Shown here: positions 30,073 to 32,713 of the stretch, in pieces
How positions within the stretch are numbered: the first letter of the stretch is position 1
Layout: the number at the start of each line of letters is the position of its first letter
Assembly: GCF_000337095.1 (NCBI RefSeq)
Contig: NZ_AOIV01000041.1
Span: 190,861 to 254,860 of the forward strand
From: Halogeometricum pallidum JCM 14848
Lineage (GTDB): Archaea; Halobacteriota; Halobacteria; Halobacteriales; Haloferacaceae
Direction of reading: 5' to 3'
DNA: 64,000 nucleotides
Translations under genes and position numbers: made by a program
The notes under the pieces: model-generated
Seen by the model: only the letters and a program-made list of their open reading frames with translations
The model's database searches: none
What the model was told of the DNA's origin: nothing

Positions 30073-31800
30073 ATGACCGACCCGGCCGACCTCACCGTGA
30101 CGCTCGTGGACGGCTACGTCGACGAACCGGCGCACTTCGGCGTGCCGCCGTACATCTCGACGTACCCGCGCTTCACGGCCGGAGCCCTCGTCGACGCTGG
30201 CGTCCCCGAGGAGAACGTCACCTACCACACCATCGACGAACTCCGCGACGAGAGACAGAAGTGGGCCGACGTGGCCGACGCCGACCTGATGGTGTACATC
30301 GGGGGGATGACCGTCCCCGGAAGCTACGTCGGCGGCACCCCCGCCGAGCCCGATGAGGTGCGCGAACTCGCCTGGACCGCCGACGGAACCTCGGTGATGG
30401 GCGGCCCCATCCGCTTCGGCGTCGGCGAGGAGAACGCCGGCGCACAGGAGATGGAGCGGCGGAACCTCGACTACGACTTCCTCGCGATGGCCGACGTGGA
30501 GGCGGCCGCGTACGACTTAGTCGACAGCGGACTGGAGGGGTTCGACAACCGCTACCGCGACAACGAGGAACTCGACAGGTGGGCCGCCAAGGGGGCGTTC
30601 GTCGTCGAACAGCACCCGAACCACCCCGACTACCTCATCTGCGAGATGGAGACGTCGCGCGGGTGCGCCTACCGGTGCTCGTTCTGCACCGAACCGATGT
30701 ACGGCAACCCCGCCTTCCGGACGCCGGAGTCCGTCGTCCGCGAGGTGGGCAACCTCTCCGACCGGGGGGCCAAACACTTCCGCCTCGGCCGGCAGGCCGA
30801 CATCCTCGCGTTCGGCGGCGACGGCGAGGCGCCGAACCCCGACGCCCTCCGGCGACTGTACGAGGGGATTCGGGAGGTGGCGCCCGACCTGGAGACGCTC
30901 CACCTCGACAACATGAACCCCATCACGGTGGTCGAGTGGCCCGAAAAGTCCCGCGAGTGCATCCGCATCATCGCAGAGCACAACACGCCCGGCGACACCG
31001 CAGCGTTCGGCCTCGAATCGGCCGACCCCGTGGTGCAAGAGCAGAACACGCTGAACGTCACCGCCGACGAGTGCTTCGAAGCCGTGAAGATAGTCAACGA
31101 GGAGGCCGGGTGGCGGCCGGGCGAGTCGCCCGCCGACGCGCCGACGCACGGCGACGGCGCCACCAATCGCCTGCCGAAGCTCCTCCCCGGCATCAACCTC
31201 CTGCACGGCCTGAAGGGCGAACGCGAGGAGACGTTCGCGCACAACAAGCGCTTCCTCCACCGCGTCTACGACGCCGGTCTGATGGTCCGCCGCATCAACA
31301 TCCGGCAGGTGATGGCGTTCGAGGGCACCGAGATGGCCGAGGAGGGGGCGAACATCGCCGCCGAGCACAAGAAACTGTTCCAGAAGTACAAAAAGGAAGT
31401 CAGAGAGGAGATAGACCGGCCGATGCTCAAGCGCGTCGCTCCCGCGGGCACCGTCCTGCCGAACGTCCACTTGGAGTACCACCAAGACGGCCGGACGTTC
31501 GGCCGCCAACTCGGAACCTACTCGCTCCTCGTCGGCATCCCGGGCGAACTCGAACTCGGGCGGACGACGGACGTGACCATCGTCGACCACGGTTACCGCT
31601 CCGTGACGGGCGTCCCCCATCCGCTGGACCCGAACGAGGCGAGCATGGACGAACTCACCTCGATTCCCGGTATCGGCAAGCGCACCGCCGGCGACATCGT
31701 CGTCAACCGCCCGTACGCCTCCGCGGACGAGGTGAACGCCGCCGACGTGGACCTCTCGAAGTTCACCGGACCTTATCCGGTGGAACCGAAGGCCGAGTAG
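30073..31800 (+). CDS. radical SAM protein with C-terminal helix-hairpin-helix
   Basis: A 575-residue protein. The first 150 residues resemble a B12-binding-like Rossmann region without the DxHxxG cobalamin motif. The 4Fe-4S motif SRGCAYRCSFCTEP places cysteines at 198, 202 and 205. The last 50 residues contain a helix-hairpin-helix (LTSIPGIGKRTAGDIVV), normally a DNA- or RNA-binding element. The enzyme generates a 5'-deoxyadenosyl radical, but the target is unknown. RNA or DNA modification is suggested by the tail. Confidence 0.85.
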   Translation: MTDPADLTVTLVDGYVDEPAHFGVPPYISTYPRFTAGALVDAGVPEENVTYHTIDELRDERQKWADVADADLMVYIGGMTVPGSYVGGTPAEPDEVRELAWTADGTSVMGGPIRFGVGEENAGAQEMERRNLDYDFLAMADVEAAAYDLVDSGLEGFDNRYRDNEELDRWAAKGAFVVEQHPNHPDYLICEMETSRGCAYRCSFCTEPMYGNPAFRTPESVVREVGNLSDRGAKHFRLGRQADILAFGGDGEAPNPDALRRLYEGIREVAPDLETLHLDNMNPITVVEWPEKSRECIRIIAEHNTPGDTAAFGLESADPVVQEQNTLNVTADECFEAVKIVNEEAGWRPGESPADAPTHGDGATNRLPKLLPGINLLHGLKGEREETFAHNKRFLHRVYDAGLMVRRINIRQVMAFEGTEMAEEGANIAAEHKKLFQKYKKEVREEIDRPMLKRVAPAGTVLPNVHLEYHQDGRTFGRQLGTYSLLVGIPGELELGRTTDVTIVDHGYRSVTGVPHPLDPNEASMDELTSIPGIGKRTAGDIVVNRPYASADEVNAADVDLSKFTGPYPVEPKAE

Positions 31801-32044
31801 AAGAGGGGAGATGCACCCCCTGCGGTGTCGAGCGTCGCGGTGCAGTGCGGGGTTGACGATGAGCATTCATCCGTCTACGTACCGAGCGACGACGGGAATA
31901 GCCTGTCTACTCAGACGAGCAGTCGCTTTCCAACGTGACCGCTCTTCCCGCGATAAGGGTGGTTTTACGGCTGACACCACCCCTAACCGATCAGCAGATT
32001 CGCCGACCGATTCGCGGCTGAGACGCAAACTGTCTAGACTTCCA
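31801..32044. other. gene-free stretch before the hairpin array
   Basis: No convincing gene on either strand. Open frames here have no recognisable domain and run straight through the hairpins. It contains one clear stem at 31957-31982 and several weaker dyads. The composition is less GC-rich than that of the neighbouring genes. With the following array it makes a gene-free interval of about 500 bases between the converging radical SAM and TRAM genes. Confidence 0.6.
31957..31982. repeat. 7-bp stem with 12-base loop
   Basis: GGGTGGT (31957-31963) pairs with ACCACCC (31976-31982). It is the first clear stem of the gene-free interval. Confidence 0.6.
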
Positions 32045-32051
32045 ACGCGAG

Positions 32052-32110
32052 AAAAGAGGAGAGTCGGGACCGCGCCGAGCGAACGGAGCGAGCGAGGCGC
32101 GGACTCTTTT
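32052..32110. repeat. long imperfect stem, first large hairpin of the array
   Basis: AAAAGAG (32052-32058) pairs with CTCTTTT (32104-32110), and CCGCGCC (32070-32076) with GGCGCGG (32096-32102). The 19-base loop contains a GAGCGAACGGAGCG-type sequence. The right arm ends in a T run, so it could also act as a terminator for the radical SAM transcript. Confidence 0.65.
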
Positions 32111-32114
32111 TGTC

Positions 32115-32137
32115 GCCAGAACGCTGCGCGTTCTGGC
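32115..32137. repeat. perfect 10-3-10 hairpin 1
   Basis: Left arm GCCAGAACGC, loop TGC, right arm its exact reverse complement. Total 23 bases. Confidence 0.9.
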
Positions 32138-32143
32138 TGAACA

Positions 32144-32166
32144 GCCAGAAATCGGAGATTTCTGGC
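32144..32166. repeat. perfect 10-3-10 hairpin 2
   Basis: Left arm GCCAGAAATC, loop GGA, right arm its exact reverse complement. It shares GCCAGAA with hairpin 1 and follows it after 6 bases. Confidence 0.9.
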
Positions 32167-32172
32167 GGTGCC

Positions 32173-32195
32173 GTCAGACGGCACGGCCGTCTGAC
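32173..32195. repeat. perfect 10-3-10 hairpin 3
   Basis: Left arm GTCAGACGGC, loop ACG, right arm its exact reverse complement. It follows hairpin 2 after 6 bases. Confidence 0.9.
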
Positions 32196-32200
32196 TGCTA

Positions 32201-32223
32201 ACCGGAAAGCGCCGCTTTCCGGT
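32201..32223. repeat. perfect 10-3-10 hairpin 4
   Basis: Left arm ACCGGAAAGC, loop GCC, right arm its exact reverse complement. It follows hairpin 3 after 5 bases. Confidence 0.9.
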
Positions 32224-32229
32224 GATGGT

Positions 32230-32302
32230 CGAGCTTTTTGCGAGGAGGGTCCCCGCAGCGAGCCGAAGGCTCGCGAGGAGACCCGAGTGTGCAAAAAGCT
32301 CG
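32230..32302. repeat. compound hairpin closing the array
   Basis: An outer 12-bp stem (CGAGCTTTTTGC, 32230-32241, with 32291-32302) encloses a GGGTC/GACCC stem (32247-32251 with 32280-32284) and an inner 7-bp stem GCGAGCC (32258-32264 with 32268-32274) capped by a GAA loop. It abuts the stop codon of the TRAM gene. Confidence 0.8.
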
Positions 32303-32713
32303 TTAGAAGTCGTCCTCTATCACTTCGCCCACGGCGAAGTTGGATTTGACTTCGGTCACCTCGATCTTGACGCGGTCGCCGACTTCCGCGCCGGGGACGA
32401 TGATGACGTAGCCGCGTTCGACGCGGGCGATGCCGTCGCCCTGCTTGCCGATGTCCTCTATCTCGACGTAGCGGAGTTCGCCAACTTCGACGGGGGGTTG
32501 CGGTTCGGACGAGGGCGTCGTCGACGCGGTGCTCGTGTCGGCCTCCTCGTCGGACTCGACCGCCTCGCGGGAGATGAGAGCGACGCGATACGTCTCGCCG
32601 GGTTCGACCGTGCCGGACTCGACTTCGCGCTTCGGAACCTCGACCACGTACCGGTCGTCCTCCGCGCGCACGTCAGTGTTGAACAGACACAGGAGTTTAT
32701 CTGAGATTTCCAC
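32303..32713 (-). CDS. TRAM domain protein
   Basis: A 136-residue protein starting at GTG 32713. A short N-terminal domain (residues about 1-50) and an acidic linker are followed by a TRAM domain at about residues 78-133 (VEIEDIGKQGDGIARVERGY, then VIIVPGAEVGDRVKIEV). TRAM is an OB-fold RNA-binding module; stand-alone archaeal TRAM proteins have been linked to RNA chaperone or tRNA roles. An ATTTAACA element near 32748-32756 and GGAGGT before the start may direct expression. Confidence 0.88.
   Translation of the reverse strand: MEISDKLLCLFNTDVRAEDDRYVVEVPKREVESGTVEPGETYRVALISREAVESDEEADTSTASTTPSSEPQPPVEVGELRYVEIEDIGKQGDGIARVERGYVIIVPGAEVGDRVKIEVTEVKSNFAVGEVIEDDF

Follow-up and report, generated by a model that had tools for sequence, protein, structure and literature searches.

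A tandem hairpin array between convergent genes of Halogeometricum pallidum is probably one copy of a dispersed palindromic element of haloarchaea

The DNA analyzed here, called the window throughout, is a 64,000-nucleotide stretch of Halogeometricum pallidum JCM 14848 (contig NZ_AOIV01000041.1, forward-strand positions 190,861 to 254,860), and coordinates are counted from its first letter. Four hairpins in tandem (H1 to H4) lie in a 502-bp gap between a radical SAM gene on the plus strand and a convergent TRAM-domain gene on the minus strand, with a further hairpin on either side (X and Y). The features of the locus, each with its basis, are as follows.

30073-31800, plus strand: radical SAM gene, left convergent gene (ORF; Pfam PF04055; orthologue beside TRAM in several relatives)
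32061-32106, no strand: hairpin X, flanking, GAGTC..CCGCGCC..GGCGCGG..GACTC (sequence and fold; kept in congeners without the array)
32107-32111, plus strand: T5 tract 3' of hairpin X, terminator-like (sequence; T-rich tract kept in congeners)
32113-32227, no strand: inserted segment TC-[H1..H4]-GATG (interval compared in G000, G001, G002, G003, and G011; missing in three congeners)
32115-32137, no strand: H1, GCCAGAACGC-TGC-GCGTTCTGGC (sequence; stem recurs at many loci)
32138-32143, no strand: spacer TGAACA (same in the G011, G003, and G004 copies)
32144-32166, no strand: H2, GCCAGAAATC-GGA-GATTTCTGGC (sequence; stem pattern search in relatives)
32167-32172, no strand: spacer GGTGCC (same in G004:C2)
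32173-32195, no strand: H3, GTCAGACGGC-ACG-GCCGTCTGAC (sequence; comparison with G004:C2)
32196-32200, no strand: spacer TGCTA (TAGCA/TGCTA is the commonest spacer class)
32201-32223, no strand: H4, ACCGGAAAGC-GCC-GCTTTCCGGT (sequence; comparison with G004:C2)
32230-32302, no strand: hairpin Y, compound, with outer arms at 32230-32241 and 32291-32302, T5 (32235-32239) and A5 (inverted repeat and fold; X-TTTTTGGTCSAGCTTTTTGC-Y composite dispersed)
32303-32713, minus strand: TRAM-domain gene, right convergent gene (ORF; Pfam PF01938)

A preliminary description of the locus had placed the four perfect hairpins exactly, with their 10-bp stems and 3-nt loops, and its spacing of 5-7 bases agrees with measured gaps of 6, 6, and 5. 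Its right-hand compound hairpin is also exact, but the left-hand one, given as 32052-32110, is better drawn at about 32061-32106 and followed by the T5 tract. The same description spoke of the only long gene-free stretch; 502 bp is indeed the longest gap of the window, although gaps of 414 and 382 bp are present too. A GGGTGGT..ACCACCC hairpin (31955-31987) occupies the same gap, separate from the array.

A chance origin had been called very unlikely, and shuffling agrees. The 64 kb hold no perfect 10-bp/3-nt hairpins beyond H1 to H4; 40 dinucleotide shuffles of the window gave a mean of 0.6 such hairpins and never two within 120 bp, and among 2000 shuffles of the intergenic region one hairpin arose in 2 runs and two never did. 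The region folds strongly on both strands, and the array reaches a z-score of -9.1 as DNA and -6.8 as RNA. Such folding would suit a structured non-coding RNA or a protein-binding chromosome landmark at this position, as had also been suggested. However, Rfam covariance models and a tRNA scan gave no match, the two DNA strands are near-equivalent, and neither the position is conserved nor the array present in congeners, so that we regard this explanation as very improbable.

The presence of the array is lineage-specific, and empty sites can be seen. The TRAM gene was found in all 60 relatives searched, several of which keep the radical SAM neighbor, and the orthologous radical SAM-TRAM interval was compared as the preliminary description had proposed. 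At the orthologous site, three congeners (G001, G002, and G003) have hairpin X, a T-rich tract, GGTC(C/G)AGC, a second T5, and hairpin Y, with the array missing: the two terminator-like hairpins, with their T-tracts, are directly next to each other, and the window array splits this composite at TTTTTG^GTC. A member of another genus (G011) carries a two-hairpin allele, TC-[H1-H2]-GATG, its stems and spacer as in the window. Other hairpins lie inside Y in G002, and G004, whose orthologous locus is rearranged, was left out of the interval comparison. Since the congeners keep X, Y, and the T-tracts without it, the terminator-like composite predates the array, which is an optional insert. It is important to add that the window insertion site, unlike the intragenic sites described below, has no clear 4-bp duplication, which counts against reading the array as a mobile element.

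The composite is itself dispersed, with five copies in a 345-kb contig of the window's genome and five in 400 kb of G003, array-bearing ones included in both cases. As a side observation, it is a frequent landing site of arrays.

Window, 32061-32302, and G000:C41, at 127997, 270675, 275416, and 280259: composite, hairpin X - TTTTTGGTC(C/G)AGCTTTTTGC - hairpin Y - GCAAAAAG

The array is dispersed as well. Related genomes were searched, another check put forward at the outset: of 170 genomes in the family, 43 from 9 genera matched the array by BLAST, and the stem pattern GCCAGAAN9TTCTGGC was found in 13 of 60 relatives, often paired 29 bp apart (the reversed-pattern control was nearly nil). A complete four-hairpin copy of 124 bp, its stem order unchanged, occupies an unrelated locus in a congener (G004:C2), and all 7 differences from the window over those 124 bp fall within the 12 loop bases (p ~1e-8). 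The case in which no other copies exist and the array is a local accident can therefore be set aside. Uniform size and spacing might still suggest tandem duplication at the window locus, but this explanation, to which we give next to no credence, is already contradicted by the unlike stems of the array and by the G004:C2 copy, in which another species has all four of them in unchanged order elsewhere. Within one array it is true, as first described, that architecture rather than sequence is kept; between arrays, each stem recurs in its own copies, the spacers are stereotyped, and it is the loops that vary.

Copies are few. The window's own genome gave only 2 BLAST matches and relatives between 1 and 9 with the queries used; the low number in the own genome is unlike that of classical REPs and counts against the mobile-element reading. 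Halorubrum has a related four-hairpin form, a stereotyped subtype, in 16 of 52 genomes, with at most nine matches per genome; its loops are often common within one genome and different between species. In Halorubrum the array also forms part of a longer repeat, itself dispersed, whose ends read AAAGCCCCAG.. (L195-L203, L208-L210). Among plasmid and phage records, the array query found one weak plasmid match and none in phage. A dimer pattern, CGTC-N-TGSCA-N-GACG, was tried over the whole order and set aside, being swamped by coding matches, though G006 and G033 stood out.

In all, 120 distinct arrays were collected, comprising 296 hairpins (160 distinct) with stems mostly of 9-10 bp, gaps of 3-7 nt, stereotyped GTC/GAC feet, and short spacers drawn from few recurrent words. 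Please note that a hairpin was detected only if it had a perfect stem of 8 bp or more and a 3-nt loop (loop 3 was the sole setting used for relatives). Percent pairing thus carries no weight as evidence, unlike the variety of matched stems (81 distinct). The loop is closed by C-G in 159 of the 160 distinct hairpins, and GNA loops or their complement (TNC) make up 87 of the 160, against 18 of 96 isolated coding hairpins and 12.5% for random loops. GNA loops with G-C stems form exceptionally stable DNA mini-hairpins (PMC4686876), and the C-G closed GNA loops point, short of proof, to a hairpin acting at the DNA level. A foot-to-tail polarity of the loops was sought and none was consistent (GNA 39, TNC 25, read foot to tail), so a strand-specific single-stranded DNA mechanism is not demonstrated. 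In G006, TGSCA words alternate with GACGT/AACGTC words in the spacers, so that, as in BIMEs, the units alternate in orientation and face one another. Separately, at L037 (1452-1490) an 18-bp perfect stem with a 3-nt loop (CTTTTGCCGAGGGCTGGC-GGA-...) stands directly beside an array; it is apparently a terminator half made into a perfect palindrome.

A sister subtype lies inside genes. It was found by pattern and consists of a CGAATCGC hairpin, the spacer TTAGCCA, and an RCCAGAA hairpin, the last being common to H1/H2 of the window. All 23 copies with the TTAGCCA spacer, a few of them orthologous pairs, are inside predicted genes, in one frame and in sense orientation, and the inserts add a peptide like HESRSDSLANQNASRSGD. 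A frame probability of (1/6)^22 was not used for them, since stops occur in some of the element's frames. One genome, G251, holds 14 of the 23, and at least five genera are represented overall. The host genes encode TruA, phosphoglucosamine mutase (GlmM), a TrpE/PabB-like synthase, nicotinate phosphoribosyltransferase, M32 carboxypeptidase, aldehyde dehydrogenase (ALDH), universal stress proteins, and others. Three insertions have an uninterrupted orthologue in congeners, two in one HAD gene of G033 and one in an S9 peptidase gene of G006; these inserts measure 108, 96, and 57 bp, each divisible by three, and GACG flanks the hairpin part on both sides at each. When searched in plasmids, the insert peptide gave weak matches only.

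L260-L277, L282, L283, L287, L288, and L296, each at about base 1500: in-frame two-hairpin insertions
L240 (G033:C1:1410207-1411283) and L215 (G006:C1:1802531-1804723): insertions with clean empty sites

A related dimer was also observed in frame near the C-terminus of a TnpB-like protein (L279, G231:C23); the L305 TnpB lacks it. Flanks are the same in many near-identical dimers that have the spacer TCGCACA. Judging from this copy, insertion sequences may give arrays a ride.

Could the array instead be a working part of a bidirectional terminator or a 3'-UTR stabilizer, selected for strong RNA hairpins on both strands? It does stand between T5 tracts in a convergent gap, and 27 of 54 intergenic arrays lie in convergent gaps compared with 57 of 294 gene pairs, counts that come from a home-made gene caller and from copies that are not independent. 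There is also a precedent in Haloferax, where T stretches terminate transcription; in Haloferax volcanii, 503 termination sites have a hairpin upstream, one tested hairpin having terminated (PMC7237163). X-T5 and Y-T5 resemble such archaeal terminators, the array being an insertion into a composite of that kind, and a terminator-like role of these two flanks is plausible. For the array itself the explanation is quite unlikely: the flanking hairpins and T-tracts stay without it in three congeners, its stems, spacers, and their order recur at unrelated loci, sister-subtype copies sit inside genes, and C-G closed GNA loops fit the stability of DNA mini-hairpins. Transcripts from either side probably include the window array as 3'-UTR hairpins that are not required for termination; given that congeners keep the terminator-like flanks without it, the array is best seen as a passenger.

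The copies might also have spread without transposition, through gene conversion or template switching among dispersed hairpins and terminator composites. Within the genus of the window and its near relatives, the array often occupies the same point of the composite (TTTTTG^TC..GATGGTC). Template switching is compatible with the perfect stems and with the flipped loops (GGA/TCC), and recombination between terminator composites would yield part of the same pattern. Against this, the intragenic insertions lie in unrelated genes without the composite context, and arrays are also found in tandem and divergent gaps. We consider this route unlikely, though it deserves somewhat more weight than a terminator function.

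Our preferred reading, with a probability of roughly three in four, is that haloarchaea have a dispersed, non-autonomous palindromic element, similar to REPs/BIMEs and to the RPEs of Rickettsia, of which the array represents one copy. A mobile palindromic element family was among the possibilities first listed, and the dispersed copies, the empty sites, and the intragenic copies all support it. The unit would comprise a GTC foot, a perfect stem of 9-10 bp, a 3-nt loop closed by C-G (often GNA on one strand), and a short tail, with units arranged foot-out and tail-to-tail in twos and fours. Such an element may move in the form of a hairpin of single-stranded DNA, the lagging strand being one possible place for it, with an enzyme that would cut and join it at the GAC/GTC foot so that it lands beside an existing GAC; the window copy would have landed between the two T-tracts of the terminator-like composite that separates the convergent genes. 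Mobility and expression of the arrays are both inferred from these comparisons.

No enzyme could be tied to the arrays, which counts against the mobile-element reading: the Y1 transposase (PF01797, the family that includes RAYTs) was not found in seven carriers (G010, G011, G017, G078, G256, G335, and G235). Among 36 Y1 loci scanned, four had an array in the 3 kb examined, in no fixed arrangement. One hairpin dimer was noted just upstream of a tnpA-tnpB (IS605-type) element (L305, 1316-1364). A bolder proposition, which we hold only tentatively and think somewhat likelier to be wrong than right, is that haloarchaea carry a native mobile family of tandem GNA-loop hairpins, moved as single-stranded DNA by an enzyme other than Y1/RAYT, with intergenic forms such as that in the window and in-frame, protein-coding forms in conserved enzymes.

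Of the known systems, the CGTC-tagged REPs (Di Nocera et al. 2013, PMC3733652) share much with the arrays: they are short palindromes with unpaired CGTC/TGTC at one end and a short tail, form inverted dimers, lie mostly between unidirectional or convergent genes and in some cases within genes, and have no dedicated transposase. Their tag (CGTC or TGTC/CCTC) is present here, as TGTC before H1, and CGTC/GACG feet are common in relatives; their tail fits CCA, compared with TAGCA, TGCCA, or TAGCCA in many of our copies and TGAACA and TGCTA in the window. However, their stems have 8-9 bp and start with A-T, whereas ours mostly have 9-10 bp and start with GC, AC, GT, or CG, and their loops have 4-5 nt rather than the 3 nt of all four window hairpins. 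In addition, our arrays have few copies per genome and haloarchaeal hosts, and the text of Di Nocera et al. does not mention haloarchaea.

The GTAG REPs, REPINs, and BIMEs associated with RAYT (TnpA-REP) likewise consist of tagged palindromes at the 3' ends of genes, arranged as inverted dimers or in higher arrays. Their tag was not found at the hairpin feet here, the Y1 enzyme that accompanies them in the genome is missing from the seven carriers, and their copy number, often above 100, compares with 2 in the window's genome and 1-9 in relatives. Because defining features of both the CGTC-tagged REPs (stem start and loop) and the RAYT-borne REPs (tag, transposase, and copy number) fail, the array is filed under neither; it does belong with REPs/BIMEs in the broad sense of dispersed, lineage-variable palindromes in alternating orientation.

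The RPEs of Rickettsia are palindromic, lie in frame in many unrelated genes, and encode a conserved peptide (PMC10969869). Their in-frame insertion in unrelated genes is matched by the haloarchaeal sister subtype (23/23), the window copy being intergenic. RPEs are about 150 bp long, whereas the three intragenic inserts measured span 57-108 bp and consist of hairpins with 3-nt loops; the likeness drawn here is one of architecture. The PATEs/MITEs of Haloquadratum (PMC3119063) are also small mobile haloarchaeal repeats with palindromes, but the palindromes of PATEs are near the ends only; in our case almost all of the insert consists of tandem hairpins, both in the window and at two of the three intragenic sites. 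The open-access literature searched yielded no description of this hairpin-array family.

Of all mobile DNA, short palindromic repeats count among the most poorly understood, and those without a RAYT are left unexplained by the model of a REP transposase. With clean empty sites, strict hairpin geometry, a foot-side GAC, and Y1-free carriers, the question of what copies such palindromes becomes directly testable in halophiles that are genetically tractable. Through the in-frame subtype, Archaea would join Rickettsia as carriers of protein-coding palindromes; if it proves true, a non-Y1 hairpin family would be the archaeal counterpart of those described from Rickettsia.
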